Source: Blattamonas nauphoetae
Taxonomy: Eukaryota > Preaxostyla > Oxymonadida
Direction of reading: 5' to 3'
Assembly (NCBI GenBank): GCA_033064195.1
Contig: JARBJD010000017.1
Span: 186,001 to 250,000, forward strand
DNA length: 64,000 bases
Shown here: in pieces, positions 7,472 to 48,558 of the stretch
Position numbering within the stretch: the first letter of the stretch is position 1
Layout: each line of letters starts with the position of its first letter
Notes under the pieces: model-generated
Told to the model about the DNA's origin: nothing
Seen by the model: the letters and a program-made list of their open reading frames with translations, nothing else
Database searches by the model: none
Made by a program: the position numbers and the translations under genes

Positions 7472-10400
7472 ATGAGGATCGATTTTGCTGTATGTTCGTA
7501 TTACTGTGATAAATCTGCTCATATTCCCTCTTTTCTGATTTGTACCTTTAGTTAGCGAACATATTTGGAGGTGTTTATCGAAAAGGCAATATCCTCTTCA
7601 CCCCAGACGGAAAATGTGTTCTCTCTCCTGTTGGCAACCATATTCTTGTTTACAACCTTAAATTGTTTGTGATTCACAATGTACTTATCATTCTTTATCT
7701 CTTTCAATACTTTTCAGAAACAATGTGCAGACATTCCCGTTCGAGACTCGCAAAAATATAGTTACACTCGCCCTTTCACCAGATTGCCGATTCTTAATCG
7801 CATCTGATGTGGATGGAAGATCTATACTTGTCAACTACCCAACTCAGACAATTATAACGCATATTAATTTTAAATCACAAGCAAAAATCCTTCGTTTTTC
7901 ACCTGACAGCAAGTTTGCTTTCCACTCTTAATAATCAGTAATCACTCTCCATTCCATCCTTCTGGATAGATATCTTGCCGTTTCACATGGATCACTCGTC
8001 CAAGTTTGGAGAATGCCCGAAACTGATGAATATCAACTCGCTCCTCTCATTCTGGAGCGAGAATTCCGTGGATCTAAGGGCGATACAACTAGCATTGAGT
8101 GGGATCCAACTTCACAGTATTTTTGATCATTTCTTTAATTTATTCAGATTTATCCTCATTGGGAGCGAAGATTCGTACTTCAGAATGTATCCCATCCAAA
8201 AAATCTATGTCGCAATCGATGGGACACGAGTCATGCAAAAATCCAGGAAAACATTGGATAAGGAAATGAGTGAGCAGAAGCTGGAGACAAAAATGGCCTA
8301 TATGCTTGAGATGATGAAGCAGGGAGATCAAGTCATCCAGGAAGAGAGTATGGAGGCAGAAGAGGATGACTCTCAAGATACTCAACAAATAGAGGCAGAT
8401 TCAGGTGAAGATCAAAGTGATGATGCTAAAAACGATGTTGATTTCATTCCTCTTCCCGACTTGGATCCACATGCCAAAACAGAGTCAGAACGGAAAGCCA
8501 TGCAGAAGCGACTCCAACGCCGTGTCCTCACTCCATTCATCTTCTGTGCGCACCATTCCCCAATCGTCACCTGCTTCTTCTCTCCCAACATGGACGCCAT
8601 CTACGCCCTCTCCCGCGACGGCATGCTGACTATGTGGAGACGCACCCCTCGCCCAGAATACGCCGACCTCACCCTCCTCGAGCAGCAGTGGATCGAAGCA
8701 GGGAAGGTGGGTCCTCACCCCTCCACTCTCGCCTTTGCGCGCTCTCGCTGGTCGTTCGTGTGGAAGCAGTTCCTCTTCTTTGGGCAGGCCAAAGCGGTCT
8801 GTGCGGCGTACGGTCGGGACAGCCTCCAGCCAGACATGAACGTCATCTTCATCGGCATGTCCAACGGAACCATCCGAATTGTCCACCCTTCGGCCCTCCT
8901 CGACACGGCAACGAGTGGACAGACAGCAGACTCACAGTCTCTCACCATCGCCCACTCCAAAATCTCGGCCGTGGCTTTTGATCCGATTCACGGATGGATT
9001 GCTCTTGGGGCCAACAAGGAGGGTCTTCTTTCTGTTTGGGATTGGAAGAACGAGTCGATTGTTCTGCGACAGGCCGGGCACGGCGGGATCATCGTCCACA
9101 ACGGGAAGACCATCCACGTCGGCGAGGACTTGGACCCGAAGCAAGCTGCCAACACCGCCGGGATGCTCACCGCAGCTTTCGACGGAGTGACAGCGTGCGG
9201 ATTCTCATCCGACGGAACCATCCTGGCCACGGGTGCCTCTGACGGCAAGGTGAAGATCTGGTCGGTGGAGACAGGGTATTGTGTCGCCACGTTCGCCGAA
9301 CAGATGTCGACCATCACATCCATTGCCTTCCTCCCTCGCTCTGCCCTCGCTGCCTCGTCGAAAGACGGAACCACACGTTTGTACGACCTCAAACGATATC
9401 GAGTCTTCCGCGTCCTCGTCCCGCCGTCAGCCGCCCCGTTCAGCCACAGTTCCATCAACACCGTCTCCAACTGCACCATCCAAAGCATCTGCACAGACCC
9501 GTCGGGGACACTCCTCGCTGGTGCGTGCCAAGACGTGAGCGGAGGATCGTCTCTCTCTTCGTCCACTCTGACGGCGTCGGGCACAGTCTCCACACCAAAG
9601 GACGGGGTTGCTGTCTGGTCCGTCCAGACAGGCCAGATCCTTGATTTCTCGGCTGGCCACTCCCTCCCCGTCACGTCTGTTGATTTCTCGCAGGAGGGCA
9701 CTCTCCTCGCTTCGGGGTCTTGGGATGGTGATATCCGTGTTTGGGACATCTACGAGAAGAAGGGAGCGAGCGAGCCGAAAGTCTTCCATCACGCATCGGA
9801 GGTCCTCATGGTTCGCTTCACTCCAGACTCTCGCAACGTCATCTCGCTCACCCGTCGTTCTGTCCTGTCGATGTGGAATCTCGACCAAGAGAAGCAAATC
9901 TTTAGTGTCGACATCTCTCCGGATTGTGTGGGGGCAGCAGGGTTGTATAGCGACAAGCAGGACCTCTCGAAGAACCACTTTACTTCATTCACGATCTCTC
10001 CAGACGGATCAACTCTCGTCGCAGTTGGACACCATCCCTTCGCCTGCCTGTACGATCTCTCGTCGGGAAGGGCAGCAATTCTGGTGAAGCGATTCAGAAT
10101 CCAGCCGGATCGGCTCTTCCCTGGGATCACGAGAGAAGGAATGCGGGAGTGGGAGAGGAGAGGAAAGAAGATGAACAAGGACGTGATGGACGAACCAGAC
10201 CTTCCCGACGCCTCTTTCCTTGGCGAACAGATTGGTCTCGATGGTGACTTTGAGGCAAGTGACAGCGAAGCTGACGAACGAATGAAAAAAGCAGCAAACC
10301 CAAGAAGCAAGCACGCTCTGCCAGCAGCGCAGCAATATGGTTCAAAGGATGTGGCAATTTCTTCCACAGGAACTCAGTTTGCAGTTGCGACTGGCCGTGG

Positions 10401-10990
10401 ACTCTTTCTTTTTGATTCAGACAGAATCAGCCTCTCCTTTGACCCGTCTGAAATCGACGAATCGGTCACTCCAGACGCCATCCTGTCAACCCTCTCGAGC
10501 GGCGATTTCCTACACAGCCTTCGTCTCTCTCTCCGATTGGGTGAGTTTGCATTGATTGTCAGAGTCCTCGAATCATTACCAGTCGACGAAATCCAATCGA
10601 CCGTTCGGAGTCTTCTGACTGGGTATGTCCCATTCTCCTCATTCATTCTTCAGGCCTTCTTCATTCGTCGCCTCATCCACAATCGCCTCCCGATTCGTCT
10701 CGTTCGTCGCGTACTACCTGCAACAGTCGCCTCATCTCGAACGGAATCTTCTTCTTGTTGTCACTCTCCTGAAAGCTGTGAGTGAAAGCATGGAAAAGGT
10801 TTGACTGCCACTCTTTCACCTTCTTCAGCCTCGTCCCCATCTCCTCCCGTCTCTCCGAAGCATTAACAAGTGGCTTGTCTCATCTTATCAGTCTCTCTCT
10901 CTGATTGTCCCACAGACGAACTCGCTGATGCAGTATATCTGCACAGCTGGGGAGCTGGAGGGAAGAGAGGAGAAGGACGAGTCAACATGA
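7472..10990 (+). CDS. PWP2: PWP2, WD40 subunit of the small-subunit processome (UtpB)
   Basis: Nucleolar WD40 scaffold needed for early 18S rRNA processing. The start ATG at 7472 gives MRIDFA, then an intron ending CCTTTAG leads into LANIFGGVYRKGNI, matching the conserved PWP2 N-terminus. Further introns fall near 7663-7720, 7914-7970, 8119-8149, about 10623-10652 and 10799-10828. Two tandem WD40 propellers follow, with clear blades such as TACGFSSDGTILATGASDGK and SVDFSQEGTLLASGSWDGD. An acidic insert sits in the early part (8280-8450). The C-terminal helical Utp12-like region (FVSFVAYYLQQSPHLERN) ends at the TGA at 10988. About 1,000 residues, near the family norm. The middle is GC-rich and the ends are AT-rich. 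Confidence 0.95.
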
Positions 10991-12964: not shown

Positions 12965-15047
12965 TCATTCGTCTTCCTTCTCTTGAGACTGTACGACGAT
13001 GTCTTCGAGAAGAGAAGTCACAAGCCCAACCCCGATGACTTTTCCGTCTCTTCGGAGCACAAACCTTCCGAAGTGGCTTCCAACAACTGACGCACACTCA
13101 ATGCAGACGGCTTCGTCGGTGATGATCTCAACGAGAGCAGCATCGCCGTATGGAAGAAGGCGGGGGTTGCTGGGAGAATGAGAAGATCAGGAGGCACACC
13201 GCTTGGCTGGCAGCCCTGTGCTCTTGTCGATGACACACAACATCTTGTTGAGGACAACATACTCGTTCCGGGACTGGAAGTACATTGTGCACTGCAGGCC
13301 AGAGATGATTGGAGGGTCGTCGGTGAAGGAGAGCACGTTGGCGAGGAAGTGGTTGGTCACCCCGACAATGCTGGCTCCCATGTCCGCACTGGTCATCAGC
13401 CTGTCTCCGATGTGGAGGGAGAAGTCCTTCTCGCTCGACGTAATTGAGATATCCACAACCGAGCCCTGCACGGCTGACGTGATGGACATTGCCCGTTCGG
13501 AGATGGCGGTGTTGGAGAGCGAGGACGTGCTGATTGATCTGATCTGACACTTCTTCGTCGACGGGAGTGCAATCATGTTGACTGGCTTGACCACGCTGAG
13601 GATGCCTGAGTCGACGTAGACGGACGCTTGGATGGTGCTGGACGATGAAATGACGTTGGTGACGGAGAGGGCGAGCTGGGCTGCGATTGTGTTGCTGCCC
13701 TGCGGGAGAGAATCTAGCGAGATGAGAGGAGAAGCAAGCACACCAACAAGCTGCAGAAGACACGGTCCGTTATACCAGCTGATCGTGGTCGGGTCGTTCG
13801 AGACATCCATCGGCGCCGCAGTGGTGCTCCTCCACAGCGACGAGTAGAAGTTCTTCGGAGAGTCTGTGCTCTTGACACGCGTGGTCATGTTCCACCCGCG
13901 CAGCCCACTGACCGGGATGAATCGGACACGCGACGCGTGGAACCCGATTGTCTCGAGGAAGGGAATCATCTGCTTGCGGATGGAGATGAAGCGGTCGAAG
14001 GCCTGCTTGACCTGGGCAGGGGTGGGTTGATCACGGCGGGCAGAGCTCTGAGCGGGAGTGGCGGACTCGTTTTGGAGGAAGAAGTCCAATTTGTTGACAG
14101 CAACAATGAGGCGACGCACTCCAAGCCCAACTGCAACTTCAAGATGCTCCCTTGTCTGCCCTGATTCTGATCCCTCTCTTTTCACAAATCCAGCTTCAAA
14201 AGCACCTGGAACAGCATCGACAACAAGGATGGCAGCATCTGCCTGGTTGATGGCCGAGATTGTGTTGCCGATGAAGTCGCGATGGCCCGGAGAGTCAAGG
14301 AAGGTGACGTGTTTGTTGGGAGTGTCAACGCGAGCAACACCAACATCCATCGTCACACCTCGCTCTCGTTCATTTCCATATTCGTCCATCACCCAAGCAA
14401 AATGGAAGGATGTTTTTCCCATCTTGCTCGCTTCTCTCTCATATGCCTTGATGACTTTGTCATCGACATTCCGAGTGAGATGAAGAAGATGGCCCATTAG
14501 TGTACCTGAGGATGTGAGGAACAAGAAGAACAGCACTTTTTCCTGCATCGACATGACCCATCACGACTACAGAGACAGATCCTCGACCATCGGAGGATTC
14601 TGGAACTGTGAGTGTTTTGAAACCTGTAGCGACATTGAGTGAACATGAATCAGGTCTGTACAAAACAATGAAGAGGAGGAATGACGAATGAAAAACGTGG
14701 TGGTCGATGAAGGCGTTGGTGATGATTGTAGGGGTGAAGAAGGAATTGTTTGAGGTTTATTGGGTTGCTTCGAAGCAGGTTTTGGTGAGTCTTTCTTCTT
14801 AGGTGTTGGCTTTGGTTTTGCTTGGGCTGCTTTTGCTTTAGCTTTGGCCTTGGCTTGTTGCATAGCTAGATGAAAAAATGGATGTCCGAATTAAAATTAG
14901 CATACAACGATAGTATTCTTCGTCATCTTCCATATAGTTATCATCATCGTCATCATAGTAATCGTCCTCATCTGGAGATTGGATTGGTTCAAGAAAAAAC
15001 GAAAAAAGACTGTCATAATAGCCATAGGCTCTTTGTTTGTGGCTCAT
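12965..15047 (-). CDS. HBS1: HBS1, eRF3-like GTPase of ribosome rescue
   Basis: Partner of Dom34/Pelota in no-go and non-stop decay: it loads Dom34 on stalled ribosomes and hydrolyses GTP. The start MSHKQRAYGYYD and the following Asp/Tyr-rich stretch match the HBS1 N-terminal domain. A basic/Pro linker follows, then the G domain: G1 GHVDAGKS+TLMGH (split by a 31-nt intron), G2 ERERGVTMDVG, G3 DSPGHRDF and G4 NKLD. Two beta-barrel domains follow, ending at the TGA at 12967-12965. The HBS1-type signature FAWVMDE separates it from EF-1alpha. The G domain carries a short loop (KREGSES) not usual in the family. The last intron is near 13166-13195. Divergent from the dynein light chain gene, 218 bp between ATGs. 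Confidence 0.95.
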
Positions 15048-24859: not shown

Positions 24860-27472
24860 TCATGAGTGTGGTTGGTTTTCTCGCATTCTCTCGAGAGCGT
24901 AGGGAGGGATGAGGCGTGCCACCTGGTCCGGGATGAGGGGAGGGGCAAGGAAGGTCGGCACGAGAAGCTTCCAATGGTGTGGGAAGTAGAGGGGCCACAC
25001 GTAGAAAGAGTCAAGGGAGGGATGGAGGGTGAACTGCGAGGGGATGAATGTTGGGTTTGTGAAGCGGGGGAGGTTTTGCCTGATGTGGTTGAAGATCGAC
25101 TCTGTCTTCTTTGGATACGCTTTGTCCGCCATTTCCTTGTACGTGTCGGACAGGAAATTCCCGAAGAGTCCGCTGGTGGTGTGGCGGGCAATGAAGCGGA
25201 GTGTCCTTTCTGTGAACTCGAATTCGGTCGGGCAGACCATCAATATTTGGAACACACAATCCAAAAACTGGACAAAAGTGGGTGAGATCTGGTTGGGATC
25301 AACAACACCCTTCGCGTTCCGCTTGAACCCTGTTCGAGACCCAAAGCGGTGCCCAAAGAGACACCATTCACGGTCGATGAGTGTGAGGAAGCCGTGGATG
25401 GTGCGGAAGTACGGGTTGGACAAGATGGAGATGAGCGAGGTCAGCGCAGGTGTCCGATCCCACCCGTCTGTGCAGTGGATCAGAATGTGGTGGGCCGACA
25501 GAGCTTCCACAAGACTTCTGGCCGACGTGAGAATCAGGTTGACGTGGTACGACCACTTCGAGGCCCGCACTTCTTCGGCAAAGCTGCAAAAATGAGGAAG
25601 AAGAAAAACACACTTTTCTGGTTTGCTGTCGTCTCGGAAGAGGTTGCGGCAGGCGGTTGTGAGTCCACGCATGCTTTTCCTCATCTCGTGGATGTTGTCG
25701 ATGTTGAGGAAGGAGCAGGAAGCAAACGGATGGTTCTTCCCCTTCTCCCAGCCACCGTTCACAATCGCGTTCCCAAACGCCGCCGCAAACGGACGAGCGT
25801 CGATGATGAGCATCGGTTTGCCGTGGTCGAGGAAGACATTCCGGCTGGACTTCTCGGAAGGACTGGCTCGCTCTTGGAGGGAGGTTGTCTGGTCCTCACT
25901 TTCTGTCTTGACGTCTTCGTTCTCTGGTTGTGGCGTCACGCTTTGGGTTTTCAGTTCCTCGTGTTCTGCTGTCTGTTCGTCCTTGTCTTCTTCTCCCTGC
26001 TCAGACAGGGGGACAGTGGACGATGGGGGAGGAGAGTCCACACTGCGCTCAGACGGGTGGCTGGTCTCCCCTTCGACGTACTGCTCCTCTCTCTGATTCT
26101 CGAGGGACGTGGTGTGAGGTGTGGCAACGGTGGATGGGGCGGGGGTGGAGACGGAGATGGAGGAAGAAGGCTCCTTCGTCTCGTCACTCTCAGCCACACT
26201 CGGAAGCATCGAATGGCGACGCTCGTTTGTTGAGAACGAGACAGAGCGTGGTGGGACTGGGAGTGACTTCCTTCTGGACAAGTTCAGCGACATCCTGATT
26301 TTATTGATTGTGTAAGGATTCGGAAGCAGATTGACAGGTTTATGGACCGGCTGAGGGACACATTCCGTCTCGTTCTTTGGCGCCTCCTCTTCGTGATGCT
26401 CCACAACTTGCTGATGAGACTCGGATTCAGACTCGTCAGACGGGTGATTGGACTGATGCAGAACGTCCAGAAGCTGTTGCCATGCGTGGTCTGCGTGGGA
26501 TTGGGAGATCGCTTTGAGGAGGTTTTCGTCTTTGTCGTTTCTTTTTGATGTCAGGCCAGCCTTTGGTTGAGCTGAACGGCACACAGTCTTTCCGCTGATA
26601 TGTGCATATGAAAGAACAGGAATTCGACCATTTCCCCGGAATTTTGCGATTTCTTTGAGGTCTTCATCTGAAACAGAGCATGGAACGCAGAGAAATGGAG
26701 GATAGGTTTTTGAGAGAGAAAAATCGTTGTTGATGTTTGTTAGACGCCAAGCATGTGCATCTGATTCTATATCATGCGATTCTGGTGGAAGAACACCCAT
26801 CAAAGGATATTCGACAGAGAAAAGGCATTGAAACCAATCAATTTCATCTTGATCAGTTGGAGTTGTTTGTTTGGCCAAATAAATAGCTTGATGATATGAA
26901 AAACAGAATGGTTGATCTGGGATAATACGCAAGGAGTTGTCAATTGACGAAAACAATTTGCTTCTGACATGGTTGTGGCTCCCTGTGTAAATGCTTGAGA
27001 ACTCTCAAACAAATGAAATAGAAACTTTAATATTCGAGTATCCTTCAAATTGACCTTGAGATAATACGAGGATGGGTTCCTGCTGGTCCTTTGTCCTCCA
27101 ATTTTTTCAATTGACAGTAGAGCTAAGAGTGGCACAGAAATCTTTTGTGGTTTCGGCTAAACATCAAGATGATGAGAAAATACGTTGGTGATATAGAGAG
27201 AGGGTAGAATTAAATTGATTCTTTGGTAACAGACTCTGTTTTGGATGGTTGGAATGAAAAGAAGGCGATAGTTGGTCACATAGAGTGTTCCACTCAATGA
27301 AAGAGCACTGAAGGCAATTTCCTCAAAGATTCCTTCGTTGTTAACAATTTCGCCTGGCAGTAGATCTGGAACTGTGGATGGTGCTTGGGCTGGGTTTCAG
27401 TCAGGAAGAAAGTGACGAGTGTGCGATTCAAAACACAATAAAAATGAAAAGAGAAAGACAAGGATTTGCCAT
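24860..27472 (-). CDS. Myotubularin-family phosphoinositide 3-phosphatase with large insert
   Basis: Dephosphorylates PI3P and PI(3,5)P2 on endosomes. Start ATG 27472 gives MANP, then an intron leads to the PH-GRAM domain (LLPGEIVNNEGIFEEIAF, TLYVTNYRLLFIP). The phosphatase domain has FRGNGRIPVLSYAH, SAQPKAGLTSKRNDKDENLL, IDARPFAAAFGNA and DIHNI-like NIDNIHEMRKSM. The active-site loop HCTDGWDRT (C-x5-R) is intact, so the enzyme should be active. It continues with GHRFGSRTGFKR and ends at the TGA at 24860. Between the SQP block and the IDARP block lies an insert of about 200 residues rich in Ser, Pro and Glu (about 25830-26480) that most myotubularins lack. Divergent from the TTLL gene, 104 bp between ATGs. 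Confidence 0.93.
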
Positions 27473-27576: not shown

Positions 27577-29778
27577 ATGGAGGTTGATTTTCCGAATCAA
27601 CCAGACCCAAACCTTCCTTTCTGTGATCCACAAACAAGGAAGGCAAAACATCCATGTGTTGATGTAGAAGGGTGTCGATATGACATCGGTGTGTTTGGCT
27701 GAACTGCTCTGATTTATTGATTCTTTTTGCTTTTCACTAGATTATCAATGATTTTGCGTGACTTTCTCTCGTACTTTTAGCTAGGGCAGCTCTCAACAAC
27801 TTGCAATATTGTCGTTGTCGAAAACATGAACATGTCCGTCTGTATTATCTTGACACGACGCCACAAGTTGAAACTTTGACTAAACTATCACCGTCACAGG
27901 TACTCCAACTATTTTTCCTCCCATTGACAATCCAATTCTTCACTCCCCAAGACAATGACAAAATTTCCTCACATGGCACACTGCTCTCAAAAAGCAGGAT
28001 TCTTCCAACATCTCAACAGAATGAGATTATGTTATCCAGACGAATACAATTTTATTCCAAGAACGTGGGTTCTTCCTCAAGATAAGGCCGAACTCATCGC
28101 TGAATTCAATCTGCAGAAAACTAGAAAAACTCCAAATACATACATTGTCAAACCATCTTCAGGAACACAGGGTGTCGGAATTTATCTTGTTCAGGATATC
28201 GAATCTATTCGACCTTCCACGGAACAAATCATTGTCCAAGAATATCTCAACAGGCCATTTCTGATTGATGGACTCAAATTTGACTTAAGAGTTTATGTTC
28301 TCGTCTCATCAGTTGCTGATCCTAATCCTATTTCCTCATCTGGTCCTTCACTTTGGGTTTGGTTGGGAAAGGAGGGATTGGCAAGGTTCTGCACAAAGAA
28401 ATACAACGACAACATCACCAAACAGAGTTTAAGTGAAGTCTTTATGCATCTGACGAACTATGCTGTAAATAAAACATCCAAAGATTTTGTTGGAAACGAA
28501 GAAGCAGGCAGCGATGACAAAGGGAGCAAACGCTCTCTTTCTTCCATCACACGCCTCCTTCATGAACAGGGACACGACACAGACGCATTGTGGGCCAAAA
28601 TCAGTTCTGTCCTTGTGAAAACCATGCTCGCACTTCACCCATCTCTTCTTTCTGTCTACGCCACTCACTGTGCCCAACCGACCGAAGCACAATCCGGTCC
28701 ATACCGCACAGAACACTCGCAATGCTGGCAAATGCTTGGATTTGACGTCATGCTCGACGCGGACCTCAATCCGTTTGTGATTGAGATCAACCACGCAGCC
28801 TCGTTCGTCACCGACTCGCCTCTCGACACAGCCATCAAGTACAACGTGATCCACAGTGCTCTCACGCTCATGGACGACCTCAACATGGCCTCCACGTCTT
28901 CCGAGGACGGCACAAACAGGTCCATCCTCGAGTCGCAAGGCGGGTTCTATCGGCAGATCTATCCGATGTGCCCGTCCTCGCTCAACGGAGTCAGCCTGGC
29001 CTCGTGGATGTCAGAGGGCCTCACACACACTCCGCCCCCGTCTGAAGAGCAGAAGAGCGTGGCAATCACCCGCAGCCCGTTCTGCTCTGTCGTCGACACG
29101 ATGGGGATCTTCAACTACGCCGCCCTCCACCACACGTTCTACCGGCTCTGCGGCGTCAAGCCCTCTTTTGGGCTGTCCATCATCGCCAACGTTGGGCCGT
29201 GCATCTCCGCTGAGTACAAACTGTACCTTCAGCGTTGTGCGGAGAGCGCGAAAGAGGCTCCCGATTCAGCCCCCGCAACCAAAGCGAAGGCGGGCAGAGA
29301 CGCGAGGCCGTCGTCCTCCTCTCTCCCTCCCCCGCGGGCCCACCAACCGTACACAACCAACGCCTCTCGATTCTGCCAGTTTGGGCGGAATTCTGGGCTG
29401 ACGCAACTCCTCCGAATGACACAGGCCGACTTCGACACTCTCTTCCGGCACGTCACCCGTAGTAGCGGCCGAGTGAGTGCTGTGAGTGGGTCTGGAAAGG
29501 TGCAGAGCCCGTCTTCGACCACTCGCGACGCGCGGACGAAGGTCGGAGCAGCACCTGTCAACTCCGCCTCGCAGACGCAGATGGGATATGGCGAGTGGTG
29601 TCAAGCTGCCCTCCAACTTGCTCTTCGGAAAAGTGAAGGGGCGACTCCGCTTGATGCTTGTCTTCATTTCATCTCGTTCCTTGAGGAGGACCTGCTCAAG
29701 ACAGAGATCACGGAACGTAAACCGATCGTTTCCAGACCTAGTTCAATGAAAGCTCTCCCTCCAAAACTACCAAACTAA
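27577..29778 (+). CDS. Tubulin tyrosine ligase-like polyglutamylase (TTLL)
   Basis: ATP-grasp enzyme that adds glutamates to tubulin tails, acting in cilia and other stable microtubules. Exon 1 from ATG 27577 encodes MEVDFPNQPDPNLPFCD. Introns near 27691-27780 and 27900-27951 follow. The TTL core is clear: PRTWVLPQD, IVKPSSGTQGVGIYL, QEYLNRPFLIDGLKFDLRVY (Lys and Arg of the ATP site), HLTNYAVNK and LGFDVMLDADLNPFVIEINH with the metal-binding Glu-x-Asn. About 620 residues; the C-terminal 230 residues are variable. Closest in style to TTLL4/5/6/13-type polyglutamylases, though chain specificity cannot be told. The final exon (27953-29778) turns markedly GC-rich from 28700 on. Confidence 0.92.
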
Positions 29779-34630: not shown

Positions 34631-36136
34631 TCAGGGAGATTTCCCTCGATTGAGAGCATTATGTGCATCCATGAGCGTCCCCTGAGCGAGTGAGGAAATC
34701 AATGAAAGTTCCCCAGCAAGAACAACGGAAGCTGCAATCATGGCAAATCGTTTATTTGCATTTTTGATGACTTCATCTTCCTGCATCTCAGAGTCCGTGG
34801 TTGGAGGGAAGACGTTCTTCTCATCGGAGAGAAGGAATGTGATGAGAGACTTTTGAACAGACGATGCAAGAGGCGACGAAACATCCACCAACAGCGACGG
34901 CATTGTGCAAGAAACATGGAGATCACCTGAATCTGTCCTGAGAAGATGATCCAAGGGAATAAACAGACAATTCGGTGGTTAGAAAGCAAGCAGAACATGT
35001 TGGTATGAGTGACATGTCTTGACCACACGCCAAAAAGAGTGCAGAGAGGGCATTTGATGCATGTGCATTGTTTCCCCCTTTGAAGAATGAAGACATTACG
35101 GAAGCGGATACCAAGTGTGCAAGCGAGTGACGATCCGAGATAGTTCTTCTTTTGATTCAATGAAAGAAAGGTCTGAGGTGAAACATGCATGACACTGCCA
35201 ATTTAGAGAATCGGAAAAGGAAACGTTTGAAGGAGCTGTGCAGGGATTACAACATCCGACGAGACTGTAAACCCCGATGGTTTGACAATATTAGACACTG
35301 ACGGTGAAGAGCTTGACGAGAAAGGTGTTTGAATGCTGAGTGAACTTAAAACAAAGCCAAGAGACCTGAGGAGTGTGAATGAAACGGGAGAGGATTTCTT
35401 GATGATTTTCAGAAGGTTCGTAATGAGTTTTGATTGAATGTGTTTAAAAGATGAGGTTCTGTGTCTGAGTCTGAAAACGACAGACACATTTTGAGCTACA
35501 ATGTACGATTCAACCTGAAAGATCACATAAACACGAAATACGAACATCTCCTAAACAAAGGGACGGATTTGAATCAGATACAGCCAATGAGAGCGACTCA
35601 AAGAGACTTGGTTGTGAAAGATGTGTTTGGAACTGATCGAGCTCTTCAAGATTTGACAATGAAATGACCGCAGAAAGGGTGTATCCATTATCAATTGCAC
35701 ACGAAACAACTCCTCCTTCATGAGACGGAATGGTGTCAAAGTGAAAATAATGAGAACCTGATTGAGTGAGTAACTTATTACCCCGACTGAAAGAAGCAAT
35801 CAATGCTCCTTCAGTTGTTGACAGGGGAATCATTGATGCAATTCCATTGACCAGAATGTTCTCGGTGATTCCGATTGGGATGGTGGTGGCAGGCGATGGA
35901 TGTGTCATGACGATGAAGGAAGAAGATTCGGACGAAAAGAGTGATAAATGATGACTGTATGACAATAGGCACCTGTTTCCGGGGTTTTGACTGTCCAGAG
36001 ATTGAAAGGTGGGTGTGATCAGGGTGAGGATGGCTGATTCACCGGATGCTGATGAGGACACTGACCAACTATCCCAAAAAGGTTTTAATTTCCGTTTTTT
36101 GGCATAATCTTTCTCAATTTCCATTTTTTTCGTCAT
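34631..36136 (-). CDS. Divergent HMG-CoA reductase homologue lacking key catalytic residues
   Basis: Related to class I HMG-CoA reductase, the NADPH-dependent mevalonate-pathway enzyme. Family blocks are clear: IPLSTTEGALIASFSRGNK, DVVIPAQLL, NYLGSSLACTLGGNNAHASN, LACGQDM, DLHVSCTMPS and ASVVLAGELSLISSLAQG, ending MDAHNALNRGKSP. Introns near 35515-35547, 35210-35240, 35090-35120 and 34930-34960 join in frame. The catalytic Glu (TTEG), Asp (GQD) and His (DAH) are kept. The NADPH-binding DAMGMN is replaced by TSSFKH, and the lysine block DKKP by SSSP, so the enzyme may be inactive. No transmembrane N-terminus is seen. The start at 36136 is provisional; a later ATG at about 35909 is possible. 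Confidence 0.82.
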
Positions 36137-39086
36137 TTGATTCTCTCCAACACTCGAAGTGACACAATTCCTCGTAACTCCTATCCCTCATGGCTTAACG
36201 CCAAATTTATCAGAATCTCACGATCAAAAACCGTTTTCCAACCCTCTTCTCCCTGTAACAAGCCCAACAGTCCTGTCTGAACCAAGTAGTGCTCGCGCAA
36301 ACTCTTTCGACCAGAAACACTCTCCAACGGAAGCACTTCTTGATTCACGAGCAACTCCCTCCTTTCAAGGCGCGTTTTCGTTCGAAGGTTCAGCAGTAGA
36401 TCTCCCTTTTCAACGTGAAATCACTTCATTGAACACAAATCACAATATCTTTCATGGCACACCTTTCTTTCCCACTCCTGGGGTACCACCAGAGTTTAGC
36501 CCAACTCAGCGCTATGCAGTTCCCTTTAATCAACTTCCTTCAAATGCATTTTACCCGGGTGATGCCCTACAACTAACTGATGATCCCTCTCTCGTCAATC
36601 TTGATGAGTTAGGGAGATTTGACGGGCTTCATTCCTTTCAACTGCAACAATCAGGTCTCCTCCCTCCTGATGATCCCAATTTCATGAACATTACGATGGG
36701 TCTGGATCATATTGCCATTGATCAGCAACTCCAAGATTTCACACAAGGACAGTACAGCAACGAGTATCAGCCCATCTCAACAGATCTCGATGAGACACCG
36801 AATCCCCAGGCCACTCAAAATCCGAATGATGTCTCTAATCAGCTCTCGCCCAAGAAAAAAAGGCCTCCCCTCGACGACGACAGCTTTCCGGCTCTTCCCG
36901 GGGAAGTTCCCGAACAACACACTCAAATCGAGCCAATTCACATCGCAGAGGACGATAAAACAGAGCAACCTCCAATTGCATCAGAAGCAATCCACGTCGA
37001 ACAACACACACCTCCCCCAAAAGACGAAGCAGCAGATGTCTCTCCGTCCTCAACTGGCCAACGCCTTCAATTCAACGTTGGTGCCTCTCCCTTTTGTCCT
37101 CGACCCAGTTCATCCACGTCTCCGTCTCCCCAGAAGACCGCCAACCCAAGCTTCAATGTCAAAGCAAAGCCCTTCACTCTCAGCCCTGTTTCGAAGCAGG
37201 CTGCCTCTTCTTTCGATCTGTCCACTGTTGCCCTCGGCGCGATCCCATTCGTCCCCAAAAAAGCGCCTTCCCAAACCGCTCCTCCCCAACCCACCCCTCT
37301 CCCGCCCAACGTCGTCCCCATCCCCAAAACACGCACCATCAATCCGCCCTACACACACGCCCACTTTCCCCCCACAGCCTCGCAACTCGCCCAGTCATAC
37401 ACCCGCTCCAAGGCCCACCCCGGAATGGCCCCGAACCCCCACCCTGCCGTTCCTGGGCAGTACGTCGGGTACCCTCCGCACACCGCTGCCCGCTACCCGC
37501 CCATGCAGAACCCGCAGCGGCCGTACAACTCGCCCACCGCGCAGACAGGGCAGATGCAGATGGGCGGGCAGCGGATGGTCAACGCGTACCCGCCCAACAC
37601 GCAGCTCCCCAACTCGTACTACCCCAACCCCGCTCTGTACCAGCCAGCCAGCAGGACGATGGGGCAGGAGGGCTACAAACCAGCGTGGGCCTCCGGGTCT
37701 CCAGTGCAACAGCAACAGCCCCAAATGTATTATCGGACGCCCAGGAACCCGTATCAGCAGCAGGCACCCGAGAAGACAGCGCAGTTCAATCCCGTCCCCT
37801 TCACACCCACTTCACACGCCCCACCCAACTCAACACAATCGTCCTCGCAGGAGAACATCCCCTCTCTTCTTTCTCTCCTGCAGTCATCTCAACAGAACAT
37901 CTCCCCCTCTCCGCCTGTCCAGGAGAAGACAAACACTCCGACAGTCCCCCCGCAGGAGCACCCTCAAACCACAACAGTCTCCATCCCTCTGGACGTGGTG
38001 AAGATGCTCATCAAGGATCCGGGGTCGAAGGACAGGAAGCGGCACCGGAGGAGAGACAGGGACGGAAGCTCGGATTCTTATTCCAGTCTGTCCTATTCGA
38101 GCGAGACGAGCGGCCATCGCGCGAGGAGGAAGGAGCGGAACAGAATGAAGGAACGGAATCGGCAGCATCAATATTCTGCTCCTCCCTCGCCGACTCCAGC
38201 GCCTCAGCACACGCTGACTCCTCAAGCCCACATCAGCCCAAGCCAACAGCAGAAACGGGACATGCCCACACCCTCCCACCTTCATCCTCAGAACCCCACA
38301 GTCCCCATCCGAACCTCTCAACTCCAGCCCGCCTTCCTCCAAGGGGCCATCCCCAAAGACTTCGCTCCCCTCTCTCTCCAATACATGGCCCAGCAGAAGA
38401 TTTCCGGCTCTGACCCCGTTCCCCACCGCGTCCCTCGCACCTCAGCGCAGATCGCAGCGGAGGCACGTGCTGCTCAAGCCAATCTTTCGGCTACCATGCA
38501 CAAGCCATCACCACACACCTCGCTCTCTCCCAGCGTCAACCCTCCACGGCCCAGCTCCTCCACGTCAACTCCTCTCCGCCCGTCAGGGACTCTCCTCCTC
38601 ATCCACTCACCCCGCTCCAAACCATCCCCGCCTGTCTTCTCGCAATACCTCCCTCGAAGCGGCTCCCCTCTCGAGACGCTCACCGACCCTGGCGAAGAAC
38701 AGGCATGGTTGGACAACCACGACACGAAGCAGCGGCGGTTCACTGCGGAGGAGATGATGAGCCGGAGACGCCATTGGCAGATGTTCATCCACTATCGCGA
38801 GTACGACCGCCGAGTGAAGCTACGGATCCAGGAGCCGATGTACGGGATGATCGAGAGAGTCCCCGTGGAGGACGATGTGGGCGAAGGAACCATCACTCAC
38901 GACCCACCACCCAACTCGGCCTCGCCGCGTCCCGTCCACCACGCTCCACTCCCCGCTCAAGCTCAGGTGGGTCGAAGCGAACAGCATCCTCACATCCCGC
39001 GCACTCAGCCTCTTCCTCCGGTCGGAACTCTTCCCTCTCGGTCGCCTGTCAAGCTCGAAGAGAAGAGGGCAACCCCCGTTGGATGA
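36030..39086 (+). CDS. Large Pro/Gln/Ser-rich protein, unknown family
   Basis: The body is one long exon from 36160 to the TGA at 39084, about 975 residues. It has no ATG near its 5' end. The best candidate first exon is 36030-36081 (MADSPDADEDTDQLSQK), joined by an intron 36082-36159 with a pyrimidine-rich end; it would overlap the first exon of the HMG-CoA reductase-like gene on the other strand. Most of the protein is low complexity: a DSFPALPG motif near 36880, Pro/Tyr/Asn-rich runs around 37350-37800, and an Arg/Ser patch at 38030-38160. A conserved-looking basic segment near the end reads TAEEMMSRRRHWQMFIHYRE. Composition suggests an RNA-granule or transcription-related scaffold; unproven. 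Confidence 0.65.
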
Positions 39087-46262: not shown

Positions 46263-48558
46263 CTAAGCTTGGTAATCAATATTGTTCCTGTCTTCCTCGT
46301 TTCTGTTCAGATAGGAACGTTCAATGAGCGAGTCCATTCGGAGCGAGATCTGTCTGCGGGTTGGTTTGAAGCGGTTGGTGAGCTGCCTTTCGACCTCGCT
46401 GAGCAGTTCGGAGATGGGCATCGTCTTTCGAGTCTTCATGATGCGCATGATGGTGGACTCGAGCTCGATGGTGCGGGTCTCGTCAACCTTCTTCTCCACC
46501 TTCTCCTCGTCTTCCTTGAGCGGTGAGAAGAAGGAGAACATTTCCGCGACCACAGAGAACTTCTTCTTCTTTCGGGTGAGCTCCGTGTTCACTGTGACCT
46601 GGTCAGTCTTGTTGAGGGTGAGAAGCCCTTTCGCTGTTTCTGGGTCAGATCCGTCCTGAGTCTTGACAATGAGCAGCTTGGCCTTTCCGGCGAGAGAGTT
46701 GATGACGGAGAACAGGATCTGCATGTCGAGCTGCGTGCGTGTGTTGATTTCTGTCACTGTGAACATGTCCTTCTCATTGAACAACAACAAGACTCCCATC
46801 TGCAGTGTCGTCACCTCAATTTCGTATCGCGTGCGTCCGAAGTAACTGCGCAGATCGCCCATGCCGAGTCCGTGCATCCACGCGATCTTCCGCTCGGAGT
46901 GCTGGCGGAGGTAGAAGTTCTGATACAGCTCGATGATCCGCTCCATGTCCGGCGGGAGGCGGATGGAGACGGGTGTGATGACTGGCCAGAATGCCTGCGT
47001 GAGGATGATCGGGGCGCAGCTGAAGCCGGGGAGGGTCTGGTCGTGGTCCCGCTGCTGCATGTAGTACGACTCGAACCCGCCAGCCTGGTCCTCGCTGATC
47101 ATGATGTCGGAGAACATCCCTTCGAGCTTCTGTGTGTACTGGAACCCACACACCTGCTGGAGCTTCTGCAGCACGAGCCGTTCCGCGTCGTTGTTGAGAT
47201 GCTTGCGGAGGAGGAAGGCGCGGCAGAGATGGTGTTTGTAGTGCGCTTCGAAGCGGTCCTTGTCTTCGATGAACTTGAACACTTCGATGAAGTCGGTGAT
47301 GCGGCCGGCGACTTCCATCTCGCGCGCGTCGGTGGCTGGCTTGTCGACCTCCTTTCGGATGGAGACGGCGAGCATCTCGGGTGCTTTGGGGTTCTTGTTC
47401 ACAAATTGTGTGAAGGCGTCCTTCCGGCGTCTGTCAAACTGTTGGTCGAGGTCGACGACAGCCGTGCGTGAGAACGAAGTGATGATGATGAGAGCCGACT
47501 TGTTCAGTTGGATGACACGCTCCACAAACTCTTCGGGTTCCTTGGCAGTGGTGAGAATCTCCTGACCCCTCCGCTCGAGGAAGCGAGTGAACTCGTCTAG
47601 GAGTGGCTGGATGCCGTTCTCAACTGACGAGAGAATGCGGTACAGACATCCAAGTTCGTTTGTTTGTTGGTGTTCAAACATAGTCCGGACTCCTTGGGGG
47701 GAGTTGATGATCGTGTCGATGTGTTTTGTGATGAGTGAATCACAAACAAGTTGCTTGACAAGTGGGAGCGTTGTCTCTGAAAGCATCATTGTGCACCGGG
47801 TCACCTCTTCTTGAAGTCTTCTTTCGGCTCGGTGGATGAAGTCAATCAGACCCATGGACGTAATTTTGTCGCCTTCTTGTTCGTAGAATTTTCGTGTCGA
47901 TTCCAAATAAGGACCCTCAAATGTGATTTTGTAGTATGTCATATTTTCCACGGAGAGGTCCAGGATGGTCTTCACAAATGTGCGCAGCGAGACAGCGTCG
48001 ATTGTTTCGCCATTCCTTTCCCGATCTATTTCGACCAACGCTCGATCAATACCAACCGGCTTGATGTTCAGTTTATCGCAGACAATTTGCCTGAAGAGGA
48101 TAATTCCCATTCCGTAGACATTCGGGATATTGTGTTGAGCAATGTAAGAGCGGTCAAGATAGATGAAGATGTCGCGGATAAGCCGTAAACGGGACTGGAG
48201 GAGTTGCCATTGCTCGGCAAGAACGGCCCAAGTATCGTTGATAGCCAGGGGGAGAGAGGCAGCCTGCTGTTCCATGCGTTTTCTGAGGAATTGTTGGAGG
48301 TTTTCATAGAGGAGTTTGCCTTCATGTTTATTGCACATATGGTACACAATACTATGGAAGCATTTACAGAGATAAAAAAGAGGCCAACCGGTAGATTTCT
48401 TCAAAATAGAAGGTTGATTGGCCATCGTCAAAGAATTGGTTTAAGACTGATTCGATCGTGGGCCACCCCTGAGTAGTTTGTGCAGGCTGGTCATAACGTT
48501 TCATTTGAAACGTCTTTTGTGTTGGTTTCTGTATGATCTGTCCACCTCTGCCACTCAT
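46263..48558 (-). CDS. CUL3: Cullin-3-like ubiquitin ligase scaffold
   Basis: Scaffold that joins BTB-domain substrate adaptors to RBX1 and an E2. Exon 1 from ATG 48558 encodes MSGRGGQIIQKPTQKTFQMK and STFYFEEIYR; a short intron (about 48357-48393) follows, and the rest is one exon to the TAA/TAG stop at 46263. Cullin repeats carry LLPLVKQ-like helices and LGCLYRILS. The cullin homology domain has DKDRFEAHYKHHLCRAFLL and FSDIMISEDQAGGFESY. The C-terminal neddylation domain is IMRIMKTRKTMPISELL, with the acceptor Lys in IMK, ending DRNNIDYQA. About 740 residues, family-typical. A BTB protein encoded at 58.3 kb is of the class that docks to cullin-3. Middle GC-rich, 5' end AT-rich. Confidence 0.93.

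Follow-up and report, generated by a model that had tools for sequence, protein, structure and literature searches.

The window analysed here, a stretch of 64,000 nucleotides from the oxymonad Blattamonas nauphoetae, contains at 34631-36136 on the minus strand a spliced homologue of class I HMG-CoA reductase (HMGR), which we call W. HMGR catalyses the rate-limiting step of the mevalonate pathway and is the target of statins. W has six introns of 30-42 nt, all of them GT-AG, and every exon is in frame. The 42-nt intron at 35757-35716 is present in the public model (P0001) but absent from a previous sequence-only reading of this DNA. After removal of this intron, spliced W reads SRGNKLLTQSGGVVS (SGGV), and thus the glycine patch after TTEG (577-578; residue numbers refer to human HMGR) is kept. 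The loss of this patch, as claimed in that reading, was an artefact of the missed intron, and the glycine patch truly lost is GGGT at 806-809. The same reading placed the start at 36136, which adds 76 residues (36136-35909); this extension is unsupported, and the public start is the ATG at 35908 (MTHPSPATTIPIG) with a protein of 359 aa. Our model of W includes the whole of the public protein, named 'putative HMGR 1', without a mismatch. As had been claimed, the exons of W are in frame and its end with His866 is kept. The features of W, with the HMG-CoA and NADPH halves of the active site as defined below, are as follows.

35758..36136, minus strand: exon 1 as drawn in the sequence-only reading; the public ATG is at 35908
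35780..35821, minus strand: STTEGALIASFSRG, kept HMG-CoA-half block with the equivalents of Glu559, Ser565 and Arg568 (alignment)
35716..35757, minus strand: 42-nt intron, matching intron 1 of C24 in codon and phase (public model, alignment)
35546..35715, minus strand: exon 2
35366..35514, minus strand: exon 3, containing the decayed NADPH loop
35428..35463, minus strand: loss of the NADPH loop, with HRTSSFKHIQSK replacing SGDAMGMNMISK, in exon 3 (alignment)
35225..35335, minus strand: exon 4
35299..35367, minus strand: loss of the cis-loop and its Lys691, with SIQTPFSSSSSPS replacing VSGNYCTDKKPAA; an intron lies inside this span (alignment)
35112..35194, minus strand: exon 5, with NQKKN at 35157-35143 (Lys735 kept)
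34969..35077, minus strand: exon 6, with NNAHASN at 35072-35052 (His752 and Asn755 kept) and ACGQD at 35030-35016 (Asp767 kept)
34631..34937, minus strand: exon 7 and stop codon
34862..34915, minus strand: loss of the second glycine-rich nucleotide motif, with VSCTMPSLLVDVSSPLAS replacing ISCTMPSIEIGTVGGGTN (alignment)
34640..34669, minus strand: DAHNALNRGK, catalytic His866 and Asn870/Arg871 kept (alignment)

Head to head with W lies a 981-codon open frame (36141-39086, plus strand), which is rich in Pro, Gln and Ser and has no match in Pfam. Judging by eye, we take other genes of the window to encode a WD40 protein of the PWP2 type (7942-10785, plus strand), a translational GTPase of the HBS1/eRF3 type (13187-14560, minus strand), a myotubularin-like phosphatase (24860-27004, minus strand), a tubulin-tyrosine-ligase-like protein (27928-29778, plus strand) and a cullin (46263-48440, minus strand).

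The assignment of W to class I HMGR was borne out by a score of 186 bits against Pfam PF00368 (cut-off 27), obtained with a 449-aa model in which one intron was still unspliced. Against NCBIfam TIGR00533 (HMGR, NADPH), W scored 127.1 bits, below the cut-off of 441.8, again with one intron unspliced. The predicted structure of P0001 has a pLDDT of 87.7 and retains the HMGR fold with the S-domain, its best match being 1dqa_D (TM 0.87).

To place the changes in W, 209 relatives were collected, the best 120 of 206 from one protein search and 89 from another, both of which scored the ~8000 candidates with the most shared words. Removal of 3 Blattamonas rows and of 28 rows shorter than 370 aa or containing X left 178 relatives, which were aligned with human HMGR. 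From these, 64 representatives at <80% identity were used for the column, block and half-site counts and 58 at <75% for the tree. At the NADPH loop, W has T653, S655, F656, K657 and H658 in place of D, M, G, M and N, and at the cis-loop S690, S691 and S692 in place of D, K and K; L590, P686 and SSPL at 806-809 in place of GGGT are further losses. The replacements of DAMGMN by TSSFKH and of DKKP by SSSP thus agree with what had been noticed from the sequence, and the alignment is gap-free inside those stretches. These losses are not due to chance, because D653, G656, M657, N658, D690, K691 and K692 are each present in 170-178 of the 178 relatives. Neither the ENVIG strand nor the N-domain is present in W. 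Retained are E559, S565, R568, K735, H752, N755, D767, L853, H866, N870 and R871, among them the catalytic Glu (TTEG, 559), Asp (GQD, 767) and His (DAH, 866), for which the alignment confirmed the original assignment. The variants His722, Ser567 and Ala865 of W all occur in relatives. At the four catalytic positions (559, 691, 767 and 866) W reads E, S, D and H, while 60 of the 64 representatives read EKDH in one chain. It is thus right, as far as the alignment tells, that W alone would be unable to build an HMGR active site. A hidden S-domain exon in W was ruled out, since six-frame profile matches cover profile positions 41-132, 234-287 and 286-368 only. The decayed stretch of 114 codons is free of stops (P 0.002-0.007 under random codons of the composition of W), and W looks like a maintained gene.

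A normal HMGR elsewhere in the genome had been suggested as a check. Six-frame searches of 837 contigs (88.31 Mb) by profile and by human protein detected no canonical HMGR; they detected W and two other loci, L009 on contig C24 and L010 on contig C10. The human protein query returned these three loci and two extra places with E values of 0.26 and 0.35, which were taken as noise. A bacterial class II HMGR was likewise rejected, since PF00368 detects the Lactococcus control, yet just three loci were found in this genome. The published assembly comprises 879 contigs and 88.54 Mb, with a Merqury completeness of 98.24% and a BUSCO score of 76.6% (PMC10703272), and ~0.23 Mb of it lies outside the 837 contigs searched.

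The two other loci, C24 and C10, are near-identical copies, each modelled with 414 codons and six introns of 28-44 nt. They keep ENIIG, DAMGMN, DKK, GRGKS and GGGT and carry D559, L565, S568, N735, T752, Q755 and A853, and a stop codon precedes the position of His866. At the four catalytic positions they read D, K, D and none, and so no complete set is found in one chain here either. C24 scored 259 bits against PF00368, above the cut-off of 27, and 244.8 bits against TIGR00533, below 441.8. The stop codon is the same in both copies and in both public models, and a candidate hidden C-terminal exon with His866 was rejected, as no H...[NG][RK] stretch occurs in the three frames within 600 nt past the stop. 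The public proteins P0121 ('HMGR 2', from C24) and P0122 (from C10) equal our models except for skipped stretches, which differ between the two (residues 64-185 and 67-202 of the 414-codon models, respectively). These skips are probably prediction errors in which introns of 28-30 nt were overlooked. When residues 64-185 (122 codons) were compared between C24 and C10, 4 synonymous and 6 nonsynonymous changes were found (dN/dS 0.45), with no stop and no frameshift. Because of this ratio, the intact frame and the first intron in common with W, the skipped exons were taken as coding.

The active site of human HMGR sits between two subunits (PMC7503714). Merging three residue lists of that paper, we arrived at a two-side grouping, with Ser565, Asn567, Arg568, Lys722, Ser865, His866, Glu559, Lys735, Asn755, Leu853, Asn870 and Arg871 on one side and Ser626, Arg627, Phe628, Asp653, Met655, Gly656, Met657, Asn658, Val805, Ser684, Asp690, Lys691, Lys692, Asp767 and Tyr479 on the other. 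Docked-ligand contacts in Table 3 of PMC11243442 involve R590, M657, S661, V683, S684, N686, C688, D690, K691 and K692 of chain C and E559, C561, L562, A564, S565, K735, A751, H752, N755, S852, L853, A856 and L857 of chain D; the pitavastatin row prints LYS691D, against the other rows. A review, in its description of the human enzyme, places the catalytic Lys on the HMG-CoA-binding monomer (PMC13412983). If this is true, a pair of W and C24 or C10 would form no complete site. Since PMC7503714 and PMC11243442 give explicit residue lists, they were followed over PMC13412983. From their joint list, 40 positions were scored, 20 in the HMG-CoA half and 20 in the NADPH/lysine half, and a residue was accepted when seen in at least 10% of the 64 representatives.

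W has accepted residues at 19/20 positions of the HMG-CoA half and 4/20 of the NADPH half, and C24 and C10 at 3/20 and 19/20, respectively; for C24, the HMG-CoA-half match at 865 is uncertain, since the protein is truncated at that point. Strict identity to human gave 15 and 3 for W and 3 and 17 for C24. The imbalance by accepted residues was 0.75 for W and 0.80 for C24, and its maximum among the 64 representatives was 0.45 (0.50 on a 27-position list). By strict identity the most W-like control reached +0.27 versus +0.62 for W; on the 27-position review list the control P0192 reached -0.57 versus -0.70 for C24 (-0.40 for P0192 on the 40 positions), and half-decay of the substrate side is thus not unique to C24. 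Of the 58 columns with a conservation of at least 90% across the 64 representatives, 14 were kept by W only, 26 by C24 only and 13 by both. The remaining five (542, 543, 556, 651 and 856) were kept by neither, versus 10.2 expected (P 0.004). The columns kept by C24 alone (495-532, 590-702, 769 and 804-818) alternate along the chain with those kept by W alone (539-578, 739-755 and 839-871). Block-wise mean identity to the family alternates oppositely in W and C24 and is about equal at 768-800. The half-site Fisher test gave P ~1e-6; since residues inside a block are non-independent, the P values are too small, and blocks are the more cautious unit. The losses are thus divided between W and C24 by structural half of the interface site.

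Four of the six introns of W and C24 are shared in alignment column and phase, at human positions 577 (phase 1), 682 (phase 2), 719 (phase 2) and 747 (phase 1), for which the chance is ~4e-9 if positions are uniform. A fifth pair (783/785, phase 2) is offset by two columns in a gapped loop, and the introns at 634 in W and 601 in C24 are private. Because of the four matching introns, W and C24 most likely descend from one intron-bearing gene. In the protein tree of the 58 representatives the branches are very long (3.66 for W and 2.61 for the C24/C10 stem) and neither W nor C24 has a resolved place; W and C24 as one clade is not rejected (p-AU 0.42).

Between C24 and C10 we counted 24 synonymous and 15 nonsynonymous differences (dN/dS 0.19), and the two copies are under purifying selection; there is no indel in the coding sequence, and two of the six introns have 1-nt indels. 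The ratio was 0.135 in the N- plus S-domain and 0.24 in the L-domain. In the ENIIG-SRAP part, which holds the decayed substrate pocket, it was 0.81 (2 synonymous and 5 nonsynonymous changes); this is consistent with relaxed constraint, the changes being few. For W, which is single-copy, there is no second copy from which to take dN/dS. No orthologous split pair in another species appeared among the matches listed in the protein searches, and residues 1-200 of C24, which are decayed, matched two Blattamonas proteins only, among the matches listed.

Since the losses from the ordinary interface mirror each other in W and C24, a mixed pair is the best reading. By the subunit assignments followed here, in ordinary class I HMGR one subunit provides the HMG-CoA/CoA half (Glu559, Ser565, Arg568, Lys735, His752, Asn755, His866 and Arg871) and the other the NADPH half (Arg590, DAMGMN, the cis-loop with Ser684, Asn686, Asp690, Lys691 and Lys692, Asp767 and Val805). 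Each site is thus drawn from two subunits, and the homodimer has two equal sites. We consider it likely, going by the residues kept, that W and C24/C10 encode the two different chains of a single HMG-CoA reductase. This enzyme would be an obligate heterodimer that has a single complete active site at its interface and that arose by reciprocal decay after duplication. After duplication of the intron-bearing ancestor, W would have kept the HMG-CoA half and C24/C10 the NADPH/lysine half, and one W and one C24 or C10 subunit would form the usual HMGR dimer. At the working interface Glu559, His866 and the HMG-CoA pocket would come from W, the NADPH pocket, Lys691 and Asp767 would come from its partner, and the reaction would be the ordinary one. 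The opposite interface would miss both halves and be silent, and neither kind of homodimer could work. Should the enzyme assemble into a dimer of dimers as it does in human, each tetramer would contain two working sites, not four. We infer a physical complex of the two gene products, its activity and the obligate pairing from these complementary losses. The statin contacts Arg590, Ser684, Asp690, Lys691 and Lys692 are found in C24/C10 and Glu559, Lys735, Asn755 and Leu853 in W; since the two together hold all those listed, we predict that statins bind the mixture but neither protein alone.

The sequence-only reading had taken W for a pseudoenzyme or an enzyme of changed chemistry. Its premise, that W alone has no complete site, stands, but it overlooked the complementary partner. 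W could be a regulatory pseudoenzyme or have new chemistry while C24/C10 reduce HMG-CoA alone, with Asp for Glu559 and no His866. The change from Glu to Asp is conservative, Lys691, Asp767 and the greater part of the NADPH site remain in C24/C10, and activating dead paralogues exist, as in the deoxyhypusine synthase of trypanosomes (PMC3663545). However, C24/C10 also lack Ser565, Arg568, Lys735, His752, Asn755, Leu853 and the C-terminus with His866 and Arg871, 17 of the 20 residues in their HMG-CoA half deviate from what the family accepts, and a regulatory W would not be predicted to retain just those HMG-CoA-half residues which C24/C10 have lost. This explanation thus appears very unlikely. 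Changed chemistry of a lone enzyme is disfavoured because it leaves unexplained the loss pattern of the partner and the absence of a normal HMGR from a genome with an identifiable mevalonate pathway. Ordinary chemistry by the mixed pair explains the losses in both W and C24/C10. It is very unlikely that the assembly missed a canonical HMGR and that all three loci are decaying duplicates: the BUSCO score (76.6%) and the 0.23 Mb by which the 837 contigs (88.31 Mb) fall short of the 879 (88.54 Mb) would allow for it, but the Merqury completeness is 98.24% (PMC10703272), C24/C10 have an intact frame and a dN/dS of 0.19, the 114 decayed codons of W are stop-free (P 0.002-0.007), and independent decay is not expected to yield reciprocal losses that fit two structural halves.

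HMGR activity might also have been lost altogether, with mevalonate supplied by the host or bacteria and the genes left as relics or recruited to other tasks. Oxymonads are gut endobionts (PMC10703272), and a whole active site is found neither in W nor in C24/C10. Since HMG-CoA synthase, which makes the substrate of HMGR, is present, and loss would not keep opposite halves, we regard this as highly improbable. Hardly any weight can be given to wrong gene models, in which other splice sites would bring back the lost motifs. Introns of 28-44 nt are easily misplaced, one had been missed in the earlier reading, and the public models of C24/C10 skip exons. Nevertheless, the six-frame profile search gave no sign of an overlooked S-domain exon in W, no H...NR-like stretch occurs in three frames over 600 nt past the stop of C24/C10, and the joins give near gap-free alignments with common intron positions and phases.

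The mixed pair resembles class I HMGR (human 1DQA, Arabidopsis HMG1; PF00368, TIGR00533) in fold and overall sequence, and W and C24 together hold every catalytic residue of that class (Glu559, Lys691, Asp767 and His866). Class I HMGR is described in the review as a multimer of identical monomers (PMC13412983) with four catalytic residues per chain, whereas in W and C24 these are divided over two gene products with a half-site each. The models of W, C24 and C10 look too short for the membrane-anchor part of class I HMGR. Inactive Glu and Asp mutants of hamster HMGR reportedly complement each other in a mixed dimer (Frimpong and Rodwell 1994); those were engineered point mutants, whereas the losses in W and C24 are natural, extensive and reciprocal. 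To our knowledge, no other natural heteromeric HMGR has been described, and neither a heteromeric nor a pseudoenzyme HMGR was found in a literature search, most subscription journals being outside its scope.

Heteromers of paralogues with dead subunits are already known from other enzymes. Serine palmitoyltransferase SPT1/SPT2 is a heterodimer among homodimers, presumably with one interface site and with one subunit lacking the cofactor lysine (PMC6148460). W and C24 are likewise two paralogues from one gene in one genome, as the four common introns indicate. SPT belongs to another enzyme family, and the description in PMC6148460 emphasises residues missing in SPT1 and no reciprocal loss of halves. 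In the deoxyhypusine synthase of trypanosomatids, DHSc and DHSp are two diverged paralogues, of which one lacks the catalytic Lys and both are required for full activity (PMC3663545). DHSc has the catalytic Lys and is impaired alone, and its activation is called allosteric in the title of that paper (PMC3663545), whereas W and C24 each lack one half of a shared site. A natural, obligately heteromeric HMGR is likely, in which the interface halves would have decayed reciprocally and one block at a time, until each dimer was left with a single composite site. If true, it offers a worked example, at residue resolution, of a homomer turned into a heteromer by complementary decay. The split pair would also be a natural complementation test of which subunit each residue comes from, for instance the side of the catalytic lysine, where papers disagree, and it warns that paralogues of interface enzymes labelled 'catalytically dead' need to be examined pairwise.

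Other steps of the mevalonate pathway were recognised in the genome. HMG-CoA synthase gave exon-level matches with an intact NACYG segment, which we take to be a motif of this enzyme. For mevalonate kinase, one of two loci scored above the TIGR00549 cut-off and the second was assigned by its very similar frame. Diphosphomevalonate decarboxylase gave exon-level matches, no single one of which exceeded the cut-off, phosphomevalonate kinase gave a weak match of 44 bits, and a prenyl synthase homologue is present. In the parts of the genome paper that cover HMGS and HMGR, both are named merely as pathway enzymes taken to be cytosolic, with no mention of split HMGR genes (PMC10703272). The two mevalonate kinase copies (L015 on C11 and L016 on C357) are very similar by eye and parallel the duplication of C24/C10, and thus two pathway steps are duplicated, mevalonate kinase and the C24/C10 HMGR subunit.

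The very short introns (28-44 nt) of W, C24 and C10 are easily missed by gene finders and readers alike. Three public annotations call each of these genes a putative HMG-CoA reductase, and the present finding bears on them. Two divergent HMGR relatives, P0192 and P0172, have a partly decayed HMG-CoA half (8/20 positions) and a mostly kept NADPH half (15/20 and 16/20), and are perhaps other half-sites or enzymes with other chemistry.
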